Below, piece by piece: positions 9,899 through 39,257 of a stretch of 64,000 bases of DNA. Under the pieces are notes generated by a model. That model made no database searches and was not told where the DNA came from. It saw only the letters and a program-made list of their open reading frames with translations. The position numbers were made by a program, and so were the translations under genes. Source of the DNA: Deltaproteobacteria bacterium (GTDB lineage Bacteria > Desulfobacterota > DSM-4660 > Desulfatiglandales > Desulfatiglandaceae); assembly GCA_019307945.1 (NCBI GenBank), contig JAFDIS010000007.1, forward strand, positions 1 to 64,000. Reading direction: 5' to 3'. Positions within the stretch are counted from its first letter, which is position 1. Every line of letters starts with the position of its first letter.

Positions 9899-10927
9899 AT
9901 GAGGGAAAACACACGCGTTGCACCCGGTATGACGGAGGCGGTTCCGGTACGGCTCCGCATCAGCACGCTCCTCCTTTCCAACCGATGGCTAATGGCGCCC
10001 ATGGCCGGGATTACCCAGTCTGCCTTCCGGCGACTGGTCAAGGGATTCGGCGCAGGGCTCGTGACCACGGAGATGGTGAGCGCCATGGGCCTCAGGCTCG
10101 GCCAACCCAAGACCCTCCGATATTTGATCTTCCACCCGGAAGAACGACCCCTGGCCGTGCAGATTTTCGGATATGACCCGGAGGCCATGGCCGAGGCGGC
10201 CGGGATCGCGGTGGACGCGGGCGCCGACGCCCTGGACATCAACATGGGTTGCCCTGTGCGCAAGGTGGTCCGCACCGGGGCGGGCGGAGCCCTTCTGCGT
10301 GACCCGCAGCTTGCGGCCAAGATCGTGCGGGCGGTGCGCCGGGCATGCCAGGTACCCGTGACGGTGAAGCTCCGGGCCGGGTGGAGCCCGGATCGGTTCA
10401 CGGCGCCGGAACTGCTCCGGTCGCTGGAGGATTGCGGTGTGGATGCCGTGGTCTTGCACGCCCGGTTCGTGACCCAGGGCTTTTCGGGCCGTGCAGATTG
10501 GTCCCTCATCGCGCGGTTGAAGGAACAGGCAAGGGTCCCGGTGATCGGGAACGGGGATGTGGCAAAGGCCTCGGACGCACTTCGGATGGTCCGCGAGACC
10601 GGGTGCGATGGCGTCATGATCGGACGGGCTGCAACACATAACCCATGGATTTTTAAGCAAATAATTGATTTGGAAAAGGGCTTTCCCGTGACCCGCCCCA
10701 CACTCTCGGAGCGCAGGGGGCTCATCATGCGCCACTTTCATCTCCTGTGCGAAAGCCTGGGGCCCGATCGCGCGGCCCGACTCATGCGCGGCCTGTTGCT
10801 CCGCTATACCAAAGGCCTGGCCGGGGGAGCCCGCTTCCGTGGAGAGATTACCCGGGTCACGGACTTCGAATCGCTGGTGAAGGCCATGGATAGCTATTTT
10901 TCCTCTCTCGCCGAGTACGAGGCATGA
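9899..10927 (+). CDS. dus: tRNA-dihydrouridine synthase (DusB/NifR3 family)
   Basis: This 342-residue FMN-dependent enzyme reduces uridines in tRNA D-loops to dihydrouridine. The TIM barrel shows MAPMAGITQSAFRRL, the catalytic Cys in DINMGCPVRKVV, VTVKLRAGW and the FMN-phosphate segment DGVMIGRAATHNPW. The first 20-30 residues are not conserved, so ATG 9929 could be the true start; neither start has a strong ribosome site. The stop overlaps the start of the ispH fusion by 4 bases (ATGA), so translation is coupled. Confidence 0.92.
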   Translation: MRENTRVAPGMTEAVPVRLRISTLLLSNRWLMAPMAGITQSAFRRLVKGFGAGLVTTEMVSAMGLRLGQPKTLRYLIFHPEERPLAVQIFGYDPEAMAEAAGIAVDAGADALDINMGCPVRKVVRTGAGGALLRDPQLAAKIVRAVRRACQVPVTVKLRAGWSPDRFTAPELLRSLEDCGVDAVVLHARFVTQGFSGRADWSLIARLKEQARVPVIGNGDVAKASDALRMVRETGCDGVMIGRAATHNPWIFKQIIDLEKGFPVTRPTLSERRGLIMRHFHLLCESLGPDRAARLMRGLLLRYTKGLAGGARFRGEITRVTDFESLVKAMDSYFSSLAEYEA

Positions 10928-12666
10928 GGGTTCGGCTTGCCAAGACAGCAGGCTTTTGCATGGGCGTTCGGCGCGCCATGGAACTTGCCCTTTCCGAGGC
11001 GAACAAGTCCGACGGTCCCCTGTACACCTACGGCCCGCTGATCCACAACGAGCAGGTTCTGGACCTGCTCGAATCCAAGGGTGTGCGTTCCGTCACCGAC
11101 CTCGAGACGCTACGGGACTCGGCCCGGGGGCGGATCATCATCCGGGCCCACGGGATCCCCCCCGCCACGAGAAAGGCATTGAGGGCCTCGCCCCTGGAGG
11201 TGATCGACGGGACCTGTCCCAGGGTGGCACGCGTACAGGCCATCATCCGGTATTACACCAGCAAGGGACACACGGCTCTCATCGTGGGTGATCCTGAGCA
11301 CGCCGAAGTGGTGGGGCTCGTGGGGTATGCCAAGACCTCCGCTTATGTGATACGCCACGAAGACGAGGTGGCGGGACTCCCGGAACTGGATCGCGTGATC
11401 CTGGTGGCCCAGACCACCCAGGATGAAAAGAAATACGGGCAGGTGACACGAAAGGTCAAGGAGCGATTCCCCGACGCCAGGGTCTTCCAGACCATCTGCG
11501 AGGCAACCCGCCAGCGCCAGGAGGAAGTTCGACTCCTGGCCGAGTCCGTGGATGCAGTGGTGGTGGTGGGAGGTTATCACAGCGGCAACACGCAACGCCT
11601 CGCCCAGATCGCCCGTTCTCAGGGCGTTCCCACCTTCCACGTGGAGACTGAAAAGGAGCTGGACAAGGCAACTCTCGCGCGCATGGAGCTGATCGGGGTG
11701 ACGGCGGGCGCCTCCACCCCAAACTGGATGATCAAAAACGTGGTGAAGGAGATCGAGGGAATCCGGGATTTCCGCGACCTTCCCTGGTTGCACTGGGCCC
11801 GGAAGGGCTTCAAGTTCGCCGTGCTCAGCAACTTTCTCGCGGCCGTGGGGGCATTTTGCCTGGCCCAGACAGGTGCCGTACTTTCCGGGAGGACCGCAGG
11901 CGGCCTATACCCCTTTCTCACGTTTCTCTATATCTATGCCATGAACGTCCTTAACCGCTTCCTGGACAAGGGCGCAAGCGCGTACAACGACCCGGAAAGA
12001 GCGGCTTTCTATAGAAATTACAAGGTGTTACTGATTTTCTCGGGTCTCCTGGCGGTGACCCTTACCCTCGTGGTCGCCCACGGCCTGGGCCGCACCACTT
12101 TCTGGGTCCTTTGCGGGCTGAGTCTCCTGGGGCTGCTCTACAGCCTGCCCCTGGTACCCCGCGCCTTCCGTGGAAGTCGCCGGCGGAGCAGGATCAAGGA
12201 CATCCCCGGGTCCAAACCCCTGGTGGAAGCCCTGGCGTGGGTGGTTTTCATCTGCGTTGTCCCGCTCCTGGAAGGAGGTGGACCCTCCTGGCCCGGCGTG
12301 ACCGCCGCCGGAGTGGTGGTCTTTGCCATGAGCTATGCCCGTAGCACCTTGTTCGACCTGTTCCAGTTCCAGGGAGACCTCATCGTGGGAGCCGAGACCC
12401 TGCCCATCACCCTGGGCTTGAAAAAGACCTCCGTCCTGCTCCGCGTGGTCCTCTGCGTGGCGGCCGCAGTACTTCTGCTATCCCCGGTGCTCGGCCTGAC
12501 GCCACCTTTCTCCTTCCTCGTCCTGCTCTCCCTGGCCGCCCTTTCTTTCTGCCTGGCAGCCTACGAAAGGCGCTGGATTCACCCGGGCCCCGCCCTGGAG
12601 GCCATGGTGGAAGGGGCCTTCATCCTGAACGGGCTGCTGGCCCTGCTGTGGGGATGGGGGCGCTGA
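10924..12666 (+). CDS. ispH: Fusion: IspH (HMBPP reductase) with a C-terminal UbiA-like membrane domain
   Basis: Residues 1 to about 285 form a complete IspH. Cluster ligands are Cys12 (GFCMGVRRAME), Cys98 (DGTCPRV) and Cys192 (TICEATRQRQ). Substrate-site histidines in IHNEQV, RAHGIPP and GDPEHAEV and the SGN and GASTP motifs are also present. IspH makes IPP and DMAPP from HMBPP. Residues from about 290 to 580 form a polytopic membrane domain of the UbiA prenyltransferase fold. Its motif 1 reads NRFLDKGAS (canonical N-x3-D-x3-D; last Asp replaced by Ser). Motif 2 reads DLFQFQGDLIVG (middle Asp replaced). The membrane domain therefore may not catalyse normal prenyl transfer. There is no stop codon or frameshift between the parts. 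Confidence 0.88.
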   Translation: MRVRLAKTAGFCMGVRRAMELALSEANKSDGPLYTYGPLIHNEQVLDLLESKGVRSVTDLETLRDSARGRIIIRAHGIPPATRKALRASPLEVIDGTCPRVARVQAIIRYYTSKGHTALIVGDPEHAEVVGLVGYAKTSAYVIRHEDEVAGLPELDRVILVAQTTQDEKKYGQVTRKVKERFPDARVFQTICEATRQRQEEVRLLAESVDAVVVVGGYHSGNTQRLAQIARSQGVPTFHVETEKELDKATLARMELIGVTAGASTPNWMIKNVVKEIEGIRDFRDLPWLHWARKGFKFAVLSNFLAAVGAFCLAQTGAVLSGRTAGGLYPFLTFLYIYAMNVLNRFLDKGASAYNDPERAAFYRNYKVLLIFSGLLAVTLTLVVAHGLGRTTFWVLCGLSLLGLLYSLPLVPRAFRGSRRRSRIKDIPGSKPLVEALAWVVFICVVPLLEGGGPSWPGVTAAGVVVFAMSYARSTLFDLFQFQGDLIVGAETLPITLGLKKTSVLLRVVLCVAAAVLLLSPVLGLTPPFSFLVLLSLAALSFCLAAYERRWIHPGPALEAMVEGAFILNGLLALLWGWGR

Positions 12667-12671
12667 GAGGA

Positions 12672-13556
12672 ATGGATGGACCCCGCGTCAGCGTCATCAT
12701 CCCCACCTTCAACCGGGCCGAGTTCGTTGTCCGCGCCGTGCGATCCGCGCTGGAACAAACGGTAGCGCCCGCCGAGGTGATCGTGGTGGACGACGGCTCC
12801 CGGGACCATACGCCGGAGGTCCTGGCCCCCTTCGGAGACCGGATCGTCCGGATGGTCCATGACGGCAACCAGGGCGTTTCCGCGGCCCGGAACACGGGCC
12901 TTCGCCGCAGTCGGGCCCCCCTGGTGGCCTTCCTCGATTCGGACGATTATTGGCTTCCCCGGAAGCTGGCGGTCCAGGTCTCCTTTTTCAGGGACCACCC
13001 CGAGGCCGTGGCCTGCCAGACCGAAGAGGTCTGGATTCGCAGGGGCAGAAGGGTCAATCCCGGGGCCAGGCATCGCAAGCCTTCAGGAGACATCTTCGGT
13101 CCGTCTCTCGAGTTGTGCCTGGTAAGCCCTTCCGCCGTGATGCTGAAGCGGGATCTGTTCCGGGAGGTGGGGCTCTTTGACGAGCGCCTTCCGGCCTGCG
13201 AGGACTATGATCTGTGGCTGCGCATCGCCTGCAGATATCCGGTATACAGGCTGCCCGAGGCCCTAGTGATCAAGGAAGGCGGCCACCCCGATCAACTCTC
13301 CCGGCGATACCCCGCCATGGACCGGTACCGCATTCGATCCCTTGCCCGCCTCATCTCCAGCGGGTTGCTGGACGCCGGGCGCAGGGCGGCCGCCGTGGAG
13401 GCACTCGGGCGAAAGGCCGCCGTTTACGCGGGCGGCTGCTTCAAGCGCGGCAAGGCCATGGAAGGCATAGCGTGCCTGGCCCTCCCTCTGCTCCTTTCCG
13501 GAACCCTCAGGTCTCTTCCAGCAGGATCTTGTGATCCACCAGAGAAAGACTCTTGA
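12672..13556 (+). CDS. Family 2 (GT-A) glycosyltransferase
   Basis: This 294-residue protein has a GT2 fold: VSVIIPTFNRAEFV at the N-terminus, nucleotide-sugar-binding VIVVDDGSRD, the DXD-type FLDSDDYW, and the acceptor-side ED in ACEDYDLWLRI. It has no membrane segments and probably transfers a sugar to a lipid or cell-surface acceptor; the donor is unknown. The start is uncertain: ATG 12672 immediately follows GAGAGG, and ATG 12648 or 12654 would add 6-8 residues. The last 50 bases overlap the convergent cooT gene, and the C-terminal residues read from that overlap look unstructured. Confidence 0.85.
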   Translation: MDGPRVSVIIPTFNRAEFVVRAVRSALEQTVAPAEVIVVDDGSRDHTPEVLAPFGDRIVRMVHDGNQGVSAARNTGLRRSRAPLVAFLDSDDYWLPRKLAVQVSFFRDHPEAVACQTEEVWIRRGRRVNPGARHRKPSGDIFGPSLELCLVSPSAVMLKRDLFREVGLFDERLPACEDYDLWLRIACRYPVYRLPEALVIKEGGHPDQLSRRYPAMDRYRIRSLARLISSGLLDAGRRAAAVEALGRKAAVYAGGCFKRGKAMEGIACLALPLLLSGTLRSLPAGSCDPPEKDS

Positions 13557-13695
13557 CCCTGGCCTGGAGGTGCTTTCGTTCCCCGAAGATGTTTGTCAGG
13601 GTCACGGTCCCGCCCTCTTCTTCGAGGGTTTCCACATCCTCCAGGACCAATTCCTCCTGCCCGTTGCTCAGCAGATATGCGGACGATTCACACAT
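13507..13695 (-). CDS. cooT: CooT-family nickel-binding protein
   Basis: The 62-residue product begins MCESSAYL and has the short SH3-like beta-strand pattern of CooT (LVLEDVETLEEEGGTVTLTNIFGERK). In the family Cys2 is the nickel ligand, and CooT helps deliver nickel to carbon monoxide dehydrogenase. A GGAGCG ribosome site precedes the ATG. The start overlaps the stop of the DUF3842 gene by 8 bases, so the two are translationally coupled. CODH itself (cooS) is at 53 kb. The 3' end overlaps the convergent glycosyltransferase gene by 50 bases. Confidence 0.85.
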   Translation of the reverse strand: MCESSAYLLSNGQEELVLEDVETLEEEGGTVTLTNIFGERKHLQARVKSLSLVDHKILLEET

Positions 13696-14104
13696 GGGAA
13701 CAGCGCTCCTTCACCAATAAAACCACCTGTTGTACCAGGTGGGGCAAGGGTTCGTCGGTCAGGCCGACTATGGTCACCCGCTCCCGGGTCAGGGGGATGA
13801 GGATCTTCCCAGCGTCGCTGGAGGCCACCGCCGCGGCCATGGCGGGCGACACCTCTCCCATCATGGCATGAGCCATCAGGATGGATACCGACCCGATGAT
13901 GATGTCTGCCCTGCTGCTCGTGCGGGCGATGGCATTTTCCCCGGTGGCCCCCCGGTTGGCCCCCGCCTTCATCATCCGGGCCGTTGCCGTTGCATTGGTC
14001 CCCAGGGCCCAGATTTCGAGATCCTCACCCACTGCCTCTCGAAGCCCCTTGATCAGCAGGGCTCCGATGCCCCCTCCCTGCCCATCCATCACCATGATTT
14101 TCAC
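13688..14104 (-). CDS. DUF3842 family protein
   Basis: The 138-residue protein opens with KIMVMDGQGGGIGALLIKGL, a glycine-rich nucleotide-binding-like start typical of DUF3842. Conserved-looking GTNATATARMMKAGANRGATGENA and GRITI-like ILIPLTRERVTIVGL segments follow. No function is established. GTG 14104 is chosen because AAGGGGG lies upstream and family members start at this motif; a TTG 66 bases upstream is possible. It is translationally coupled to cooT, which suggests a link with nickel or CODH handling (inference). Confidence 0.8.
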   Translation of the reverse strand: MKIMVMDGQGGGIGALLIKGLREAVGEDLEIWALGTNATATARMMKAGANRGATGENAIARTSSRADIIIGSVSILMAHAMMGEVSPAMAAAVASSDAGKILIPLTRERVTIVGLTDEPLPHLVQQVVLLVKERCSHV

Positions 14105-14483
14105 TTGCGCCCCCTTGCCGGCGGAGTCGGCCGACAACGGCCCCCCCAATGGTTCTTTCGTTTCAGCCAACGTGTTCGATATGCTGTAAGAATATGATCA
14201 GCCGGGTTTTCATTATAGACCGGCCTGAAAATTGTTTAAAGACCATTCGGCCGTCGCGACGCTGAAATAGGAAAAGCCCTGCTTGCGGGCCTATTCAAAA
14301 GACACCAGAATCGCTTTCCCGCGCGAGCCCGCTCGGTGGTTGACCCCCACGGGCCTCTTGGCGTACCATGGCGGTCGACTTGTGCGCGTGGATCGACGCA
14401 CCCGAAAGGTACGCCTCCCGGATCTTATTAAAACAATGCCGACCCCCTTTGTCGGCCTGTCGGAAAATCCGGTCCCCCGAAAC
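14105..14483. other. Divergent intergenic region between the DUF3842 gene and plsY
   Basis: No gene is apparent. It holds a short G/C hairpin near 14275-14290 (GCCC-TGCTTGC-GGGC). A weak promoter-like pair on the plus strand, TTGACC at 14339 with TACCAT 18 bases later, could serve plsY. Nothing else recognisable is present. Confidence 0.3.
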
Positions 14484-36986: not shown

Positions 36987-38415
36987 CAACCTGCAGTCCC
37001 TCCTGGCGCCCCTGGAAAAGGCCGGGGAGCTAACACGCATCCGGGAACCCTTGAGCCCCCGCCTGGAGATCACCGAGGTGAGCGACCGGGTGGTAAAGGC
37101 GGGGGGGCCGGCGCTTCTCTTTGAAAGGCCCCGTGGGTTCAAAATCCCGGTGCTTACAAACCTTTACGGGTCGATGGAGCGCGTGCGCACCCTTTTCGGG
37201 ATCCAGGAACTGGACGACCTGGGGGCCCGCATCCGGCAGTTGTTGGACCTCGAGCCCCCGCGGAGCTGGATCGCAAAGCTCAAGCTCCTTCCCCGCCTCA
37301 AGGAGGTGGCCCAGGTCTTTCCCAGAGAGGTCCAGAAGGCCCCGTGCCAGGAGGTCGTCCAGACCGAGGACGCGGACCTCACCGATCTTCCCATCCTCAC
37401 CTGCTGGCCCGGTGACGGGGGTCCTTTCATCACCTTGCCCGTGGTGGTGACCAGACATCCCGTCACGGGCAAGCGCAACGTGGGCATGTACCGCATGCAC
37501 GTCTACGACGGTCGGACCACCGGCATGCACTGGCACATCCACAAGGGGGGAGCGGCCCAGTTCCGGGACGCGCGGCCTGACGTGCCTTTTCCTGTGGCCG
37601 TGGCCTTGGGTCCGGATCCCATCACCACCTACTGCGCCTCTGCACCCCTTCCCGAAGGGATGGACGAGTTCACGCTCGCGGGATTCCTTAGACAACGTCC
37701 CGTGGACCTCGTGAAATGTGTGACCAACGACCTCATGGTGCCGGCCGAAAGCCAGTTTGTTCTGGAAGGATATGTGAAGCCGGGGGAAATGCGCCGGGAG
37801 GGCCCGTTCGGAGACCACACCGGCTTCTACTCCCCGGCCGGCGACTACCCCGTGTTTCACCTGACCGCCGTGACCCGGCGACGAAACCCCATCTACCACG
37901 CTACGGTCGTGGGATACCCTCCCATGGAAGACGGCCTGCTGGGAAAAATCACAGAACGCCTCTTTCTTCCCCTGATCCAACAGCAACTTCCGGAAATCCT
38001 GGACATGAACCTGCCCGTGGAGGGCTGTTTTCACAACCTTTGCTTCGTGCGCATCGACAAACGCTACCCGGGCCATGCACAAAAGGTCATGCACGCCCTC
38101 TGGGGAATGGGTCAGATGATGTTTGCCAAGATGATCTTCGTGTTCGACCGGGAGGTGGACGTGCAGGACATCTCCCAGGTGCTCTTTTACCTGGGCAGCC
38201 ACGTTGATCCGGGCCGGGACACCACGGTGGTGCGTGGGCCGGTGGACGCCCTGGATCATGCGGCGGACATGTCTCACCTGGGAACCAAGATGGGCCTGGA
38301 CTGCACTAAAAAATGGCCGGAGGAAGGCTATGGCCGCCGGTGGCCCGAACGGATCGTCATGAGCCGGGAAGTCCGAAAAAAGATCGACGCGCTGTGGGGA
38401 AGGCTGGGGTTTTGA
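36976..38415 (+). CDS. mqnL: UbiD-family menaquinone biosynthesis decarboxylase (MqnL-like)
   Basis: The 479-residue prenyl-FMN-dependent decarboxylase shows LPILTCWPGDGGPFITLP, RNVGMYRMHVYDGRTTGMHWH, the catalytic ExxxxE-type region REGPFGDHTGFYSP and HDxDPG-like HVDPGRDTT. In the mqn cluster it likely decarboxylates 1,4-dihydroxy-6-naphthoate derivatives. It begins with GTG after AGGAGGAAACCC. It shares one base with the prenyltransferase gene start. Confidence 0.88.
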   Translation: MAFDNLQSLLAPLEKAGELTRIREPLSPRLEITEVSDRVVKAGGPALLFERPRGFKIPVLTNLYGSMERVRTLFGIQELDDLGARIRQLLDLEPPRSWIAKLKLLPRLKEVAQVFPREVQKAPCQEVVQTEDADLTDLPILTCWPGDGGPFITLPVVVTRHPVTGKRNVGMYRMHVYDGRTTGMHWHIHKGGAAQFRDARPDVPFPVAVALGPDPITTYCASAPLPEGMDEFTLAGFLRQRPVDLVKCVTNDLMVPAESQFVLEGYVKPGEMRREGPFGDHTGFYSPAGDYPVFHLTAVTRRRNPIYHATVVGYPPMEDGLLGKITERLFLPLIQQQLPEILDMNLPVEGCFHNLCFVRIDKRYPGHAQKVMHALWGMGQMMFAKMIFVFDREVDVQDISQVLFYLGSHVDPGRDTTVVRGPVDALDHAADMSHLGTKMGLDCTKKWPEEGYGRRWPERIVMSREVRKKIDALWGRLGF

Positions 38416-39257
38416 TGATCCGGACTTTCTTGAGCCTGGTAAAAATCGAGCACACCCTTTTTGCTCTGCCCCTGGCCCTGGCCGGGGCGGTACTGGGGGC
38501 CGGGGGCCTGCCCGCGTGGAAGACGCTGGGGCTCGTGGCGGTGGCCTTTGCGGGGGCCAGGGCCTCTGCCATGGCCTTCAACCGCCTCGTGGACCGCCAT
38601 TTCGACGCCCGGAATCCTCGAACGGCCGCGCGCGAATTGCCCACCGGGAGAGTCACCCCGGCGCAGGCAGGCTGCCTCGTTGCGGCAAGCATTGTGGTTT
38701 TTGTGGGCGCGGCGTGGGCCATCAATCCCCTTTGCGGGAAGCTCTCCCCTGTTGCACTGGTGGTACTCCTAGGCTACTCCTACACAAAGCGCTTCACCAT
38801 GTTTTCCCATTATGTCCTTGGACTCGCCCTGGGCATGGCACCCGTGGCCGGATGGCTTGCCGTCACCGGCCGCCTGGCCCTCACACCCCTCTGCCTCGGC
38901 GCCGGCGTGGCCCTTTGGACGGCGGGCTTCGATACCCTTTACGCTTGTCAGGACGTGGAGTTCGACCGCCGCACGAATCTTCACTCTCTGCCCGCTTGCC
39001 TGGGGACCGCCAGAGCCATGGGCTGGTCCCGCGCAAGCCACGCGCTGTCGTTCCTCTTCTTCGTGGGCGCGGGTGTCCTGGCCCGGCTAGGCTGGTGCTT
39101 TTATCCCTTGATCGCTCTGACGGGACTCATGCTGGTGTGGGAGCACAGGCTGGTGGGCCCGGCGGATCAATCCCGCCTGGACCTGGCCTTTTTTCGGATC
39201 AACAGCCTGGTGTCGGCCACTATCTTGCTCGCAGTGTCCGCGGGTCTTTGGTTGTGA
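38415..39257 (+). CDS. mqnP: UbiA-family polyprenyltransferase (MqnP-like)
   Basis: The 280-residue polytopic membrane enzyme has about eight helices and both Asp-rich motifs intact: NRLVDRHFDARNPRT (N-x3-D-x3-D) and YACQDVEFDRRTNLHSLP. It prenylates the naphthoate ring. ATG 38415 overlaps the mqnL stop (TGATG). Its intact motifs contrast with the altered ones in the IspH-fused UbiA domain at 10.9-12.7 kb. Confidence 0.88.
   Translation: MIRTFLSLVKIEHTLFALPLALAGAVLGAGGLPAWKTLGLVAVAFAGARASAMAFNRLVDRHFDARNPRTAARELPTGRVTPAQAGCLVAASIVVFVGAAWAINPLCGKLSPVALVVLLGYSYTKRFTMFSHYVLGLALGMAPVAGWLAVTGRLALTPLCLGAGVALWTAGFDTLYACQDVEFDRRTNLHSLPACLGTARAMGWSRASHALSFLFFVGAGVLARLGWCFYPLIALTGLMLVWEHRLVGPADQSRLDLAFFRINSLVSATILLAVSAGLWL

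Follow-up and report, generated by a model that had tools for sequence, protein, structure and literature searches.

The ispH-ubiA locus

The genes and features at the locus are listed in Table 1, with coordinates given in the window, by which we mean the whole stretch of 64,000 nucleotides that was analysed. A single unbroken reading frame, whose start codon shares four bases (ATGA) with the stop codon of dusB, encodes an IspH followed in the same frame by a C-terminal UbiA-like domain, the arrangement by which IspH-UbiA proteins are recognised. An earlier note on this DNA had described a complete IspH running without interruption into a UbiA-fold domain, and this description was borne out by LYTB and UbiA Pfam matches within one open reading frame.

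Table 1. Positions of the ispH-ubiA gene, its parts, its neighbours and the free-standing UbiA used for comparison
Feature	Position	Strand	Basis or remark
dusB, tRNA dihydrouridine synthase, upstream, overlapping	9899..10927	+	neighbour in 21 related loci
ispH-ubiA fusion gene, 580 aa	10924..12666	+	ATG 10924, stop 12664-12666
IspH (LytB) half, residues 1-280	10924..11763	+	PF02401; VIA-align to E. coli IspH
UbiA-fold membrane half, about residues 291-580	11794..12663	+	PF01040; superposition on AfUbiA 4tq4 (predicted model)
Motif 1, residues 344-352, NRFLDKGAS; third acidic position Ser	11953..11979	+	profile alignment
Motif 2, residues 478-485, DLFQFQGD; Q481 in place of AfUbiA D198 equivalent	12355..12378	+	profile alignment
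Family 2 glycosyltransferase, directly downstream	12648..13556	+	next gene in 21 loci including the window
mqnP, free-standing UbiA, comparison	38313..39257	+	intact motifs NRLVDRHFD, DVEFD

The IspH-UbiA architecture has been known since 2015, when Rao, O'Dowd, Li, Wang and Oldfield described 47 such fusions, mainly from Desulfobacterales, as "Rosetta stone" proteins (PMC4746011), and the window protein adds a further one. It shares with those proteins the domain order, the length, the IspH half and the UbiA-like C-terminal half (PT_UbiA_5 class), but the DxxxD of its second motif starts with Gln, and most of the family as sampled here is without at least one Mg2+ ligand. In a phrase search, a single later paper named IspH-UbiA, and this as a citation; in the limited literature searched we found no earlier description of repeated metal-site loss in these proteins; the repeated loss of Mg2+ ligands in the membrane half of the fusions is what is new here. 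The IspH-RPS1 fusions likewise join IspH to a C-terminal partner and likewise occur in anaerobes, but that partner consists of ribosomal protein S1 repeats, is soluble and is unrelated to UbiA. The NF000907 match to the window protein covers the IspH part only.

It is very improbable that the gene gives two separate products, through an internal start or cleavage, and that the fusion is thus genetic only. In favour of such a split, most of the protein was truncated when other IspH-UbiAs were expressed heterologously in E. coli; Rao et al. did not obtain a full-length active IspH-UbiA by expression (PMC4746011). However, inspection of the junction by eye revealed close to it neither an ATG nor another start codon served by a well-placed ribosome-binding site, the first in-frame ATG past the junction being that of M340 at 11941; the continuous frame has been retained in more than 150 fusions despite great divergence; and the predicted two-domain model is confident, with only a short dip in confidence at the linker.

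The IspH half

For the N-terminal half, the LYTB match (PF02401) spans residues 3-278 as a full-length domain above the curated cut-off (302.8 bits, E 2.5e-90), and the protein scores 282.6 bits against the TIGR00216 cut-off of 187.85, which places it within IspH. The cluster cysteines (C12, C98, C192), the conserved histidines (H41, H76, H126) and the catalytic glutamate (E128) are all present, together with T165, N222, S220 and S264, and the catalytic residues of IspH do not vary across 103-107 fusions. Residues 1-281 of the predicted model superpose on E. coli IspH with Z 34.4 and rmsd 1.6 over 279 aligned residues (VIA-align). The window protein is the only IspH in its genome, which also holds one IspG, two polyprenyl synthetases and four further UbiA matches, the window mqnP among them. 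Since this sole IspH is accompanied by IspG, we expect that the half would be active as an HMBPP reductase.

Fold and motifs of the membrane half

The Pfam UbiA match (PF01040) covers residues 307-565 at 40.1 bits, just above the curated cut-off of 34.2, which assigns the C-terminal half to the family and its fold. The structures used for the fusion are predicted models; the AlphaFold2 model, built with 103 aligned fusions, has a mean pLDDT of 93.8 and a pTM of 0.89, and its residues 294-580 superpose on AfUbiA with bound DMAPP and Mg2+ (4tq4) with Z 19.5 and rmsd 3.9 over 264 aligned residues (VIA-align). The predicted fold is thus like that of AfUbiA (4tq3/4tq4) and of the archaeal DGGGP synthase (6m31/7bpu; Z 19.5 and 14.8, respectively), and a Tyr, an Arg and the last Asp of motif 2 are conserved in all three, but identity to these free-standing enzymes is 14-17% and in the fusion Arg345 occupies the second position of NDxxD. 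We considered this Arg as a mark of lost function and rejected it, since MqnP has NR as well.

The motif register was set by profile alignment to the DGGGP synthase (6m31), in which the positions equivalent to 344, 348, 352, 478, 481 and 485 are N, D, D, D, D and D. In place of NDxxDxxxD the window protein has N344-R-F-L-D348-K-G-A-S352, with the last Asp missing, and in place of DxxxD it has Q481-F-Q-G-D485, so that the AfUbiA residues D76 and D198 correspond to Ser and Gln. Both replacements had been read correctly beforehand, namely Ser for the second Asp of N-x3-D-x3-D and a changed middle Asp of motif 2, as had the presence in the window of a canonical UbiA, mqnP, with both motifs intact (Table 1). 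In AfUbiA the two Mg2+ ions are held by N68/D72 and D198/D202, D76 being too distant for direct contact; EcMenA depends on the equivalents of these four ligands for its function, and in AfUbiA the D198A mutation weakens GPP binding 45-fold without abolishing it (PMC4106721). Because S352 corresponds to D76 and Q481 to the ligand D198, Q481 is the greater change and S352 the lesser one. In the IspH-UbiA family, Ser is often found in place of the last Asp of motif 1.

Spread and origin of the fusion

A search for the same architecture and its phylogenetic spread found the C-terminal half in 112 of the 297 genomes sampled across the phylum, in nearly every case within a reading frame some 580 aa long, and the fusion is thus not a chance event. 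A scan of genome contigs gave 471 relatives, of which 80 were kept, 79 of them fused and one cut by a contig end. The set described by Rao et al. came from sulfate reducers only, whereas ours also includes fusions in records named Nitrospinota, Nitrospirota and Zixibacteria.

On a tree computed from the IspH halves of 178 rows (LG+G4, short search), the fused proteins formed essentially one set, the fused or solo state requiring four changes, and the solo IspHs of two genomes (L220 of G015 and L242 of G195) were nested inside the fused clade. Based on these placements, we concluded that the fusion had essentially one origin, followed by at least two losses of the membrane half. G015 is a single-contig genome whose only UbiA match is strong and canonical and lies at a different place from ispH, which indicates that the membrane half was lost there and not moved; its solo IspH being nested among fused ones, the UbiA half is dispensable for IspH function in that genome. 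No separate UbiA gene was found beside the solo ispH in 24 loci. One fused protein (L108 of G060) was placed among solo IspHs on a long branch, possibly through transfer or domain exchange, and in another locus (L106 of G022) in-frame stops interrupt the UbiA half but not the IspH frame, which may reflect either decay of the fusion or a fault in the assembly.

Loss of Mg2+ ligands across the family

Of 153 non-redundant fusions, 51 retain the equivalents of N344, D348, D481 and D485 together (60 of 189 before the removal of near-copies), and only two of the 153 retain all five motif positions. As a control, 31 free-standing UbiAs of the phylum were picked by profile, two of which were unreadable (one cut by a contig end and one not aligned); all five positions were kept in 29 of the 29 readable ones, a set that is biased to canonical proteins because these were the best Pfam scorers. 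On the IspH-half tree, nine changes were needed at D348, seven at position 481 and eight at N344, and the sites lost vary by clade, with G348 accompanied by D352 in some and A, Q, Y or E at 481 in others. The combination N344/G348 with D481 and D485 was found in 36 of the 153 fusions, Ala-481 in one clade of 13 rows, and Gln-481 in 11 proteins, all of them within a 14-row set that contains the window protein. Loss of the motifs is therefore a recurrent, clade-specific trend across the IspH-UbiA family; the changes reported in the earlier note stand, but they are not peculiar to the window protein.

A further clade of three fusions (L217:5211-6842, L218:5199-6839 and L219:5208-6848; family f31) comes from small genomes of 1.6-1.8 Mb. 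These proteins have no recognisable UbiA motif, nearly every motif residue being gone, Pfam UbiA does not match them at E 0.1, and they are nested among the fusions. A model of this clade, whose input alignment included ordinary fusions that may help the fold, was predicted with a pLDDT of 91.2 and superposed on UBIAD1 with Z 16.1 and on AfUbiA with Z 14.4; its matches above Z 8 were only IspH and UbiA-fold proteins.

Selection and conserved residues

In close pairs with enough changes, dN/dS for the membrane half was 0.09-0.17 and that of the IspH half was similar; for L218 and L219 of the motif-less clade there were too few changes for an estimate. The membrane half is thus under purifying selection and is not simply decaying. 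Its mean identity over 51 genome pairs was 31%, compared with 48% for the MqnP-type UbiA of the same pairs, and it was the lower of the two in 51 of 51. Several residues of the UbiA half are near-invariant, namely Y406 (97%), W439 (99%), R473 (96%), D485 (99%) and K/R431 (97%), and G498 and H341 are also kept almost everywhere. The persistence of D485 in the motif-less clade suggests that it has a structural role.

Role of the membrane half

Since the fusion was first recorded, a decade ago, its second half has been taken for an enzyme. Our preferred reading, which we hold with about even confidence, is that this half is a membrane-anchoring and largely non-canonical UbiA module that keeps IspH at the membrane, its conserved role being other than canonical two-metal prenyl transfer. 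One polypeptide would carry the cell's only IspH, with its catalytic residues intact, and the UbiA-fold domain would keep this IspH on the cytosolic side of the inner membrane. The membrane half would have descended from a real prenyltransferase on which family-wide selection for canonical two-metal prenyl transfer may no longer act; most likely it would anchor or position IspH near consumers of IPP/DMAPP in the membrane or near electron donors located there, and it might perhaps still bind a prenyl diphosphate. We infer in this way the membrane location of the protein, a lack of prenyltransferase activity in its membrane half and a benefit of anchoring IspH. The earlier note had suggested that the fusion may anchor IspH, channel IPP/DMAPP or use a different chemistry, and membrane attachment does appear likely from the predicted UbiA fold; membrane localisation and a local supply of IPP/DMAPP had also been suggested by Rao et al. 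(PMC4746011). Anchoring agrees best with the data, since the family retains no common set of catalytic residues. That different clades have repeatedly lost Mg2+ ligands while purifying selection has continued speaks for a conserved function of the half other than that of an enzyme. Against this stand the residues of the UbiA active-site face, which are conserved beyond what a mere anchor would require, and the retention of all four ligands by a third of the family. If anchoring is correct, the MEP pathway would end with a membrane-bound step in much of one phylum.

The main rival to anchoring, which we regard as possible and the less probable of the two, is a bifunctional protein: IspH would be the source of DMAPP/IPP, and the UbiA half would work as an active, somewhat unusual and possibly one-metal prenyltransferase for some acceptor. 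It was put forward by Rao et al., who judged prenyltransferase activity likely from two DXXXD sites (PMC4746011), and it is consistent with the almost invariant Y406, R473, K431 and D485, with dN/dS well below 1 and with DMAPP-bound AfUbiA as the nearest structure. In Rv3806c, a UbiA-fold phosphoribosyltransferase, an Asn/Asp pair suffices to hold a single Mg2+ (PMC10994848), and since the window protein keeps the same pair as N344 and D348, a one-metal enzyme is possible in this protein. A carotenoid-synthesis gene also adjoins ispH-ubiA in seven loci of one clade. However, the metal-binding set is not common to the family, its ligands having been lost several times in differing combinations, an entire clade is without the motifs, and among about 110 loci no acceptor-pathway gene is a general neighbour of ispH-ubiA. 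Prenyl transfer by the membrane half could still hold in individual clades.

It is unlikely, in our judgement, that the UbiA half acts as a sensor that would bind a prenyl diphosphate without turnover and adjust the activity or stability of IspH. The comparison here is with the UBIAD1-HMGCR complex (8djk), likewise a UbiA-fold protein physically tied to a reductase of the isoprenoid pathway, but formed by two proteins, in eukaryotes and with the mevalonate pathway, UBIAD1 being an active MK-4 synthase; binding of UBIAD1 inhibits the degradation of HMGCR (PMC9314443). A sensor would account for basic and aromatic residues that are conserved although the metal ligands are lost, and the structure on which the motif-less clade superposes best is UBIAD1 in the HMGCR complex. 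On the other hand, the two losses of the UbiA half left an ordinary-looking IspH. More doubtful still is the idea of a bacterial pseudo-prenyltransferase serving as a built-in membrane sensor that would tune IspH output, a single-chain counterpart of the UBIAD1-HMGCR feedback. With its repeated losses of Mg2+ ligands, the family offers a natural set of UbiA-fold proteins at differing stages of catalytic decay.

Neighbouring genes

Among about 110 loci, the genes beside ispH-ubiA included dusB (21), a family 2 glycosyltransferase (23), TlyA (13), a polyprenyl synthetase (12) and Dxs (8). Gene neighbourhood was rejected as a pointer to a pathway because the neighbours are not conserved across the family. 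The PF04240 (carotenoid synthesis) gene lies upstream of ispH-ubiA on the opposite strand in L040, L041, L046, L056, L059, L062 and L067, all seven from the Ala-481 clade, and we regard its presence beside this one clade as a lead only. Two genes downstream of the fusion in the window there is a DUF3842 gene on the minus strand (13688-14170), and genes of the same family lie near ispH-ubiA in eight other loci, at varying positions.
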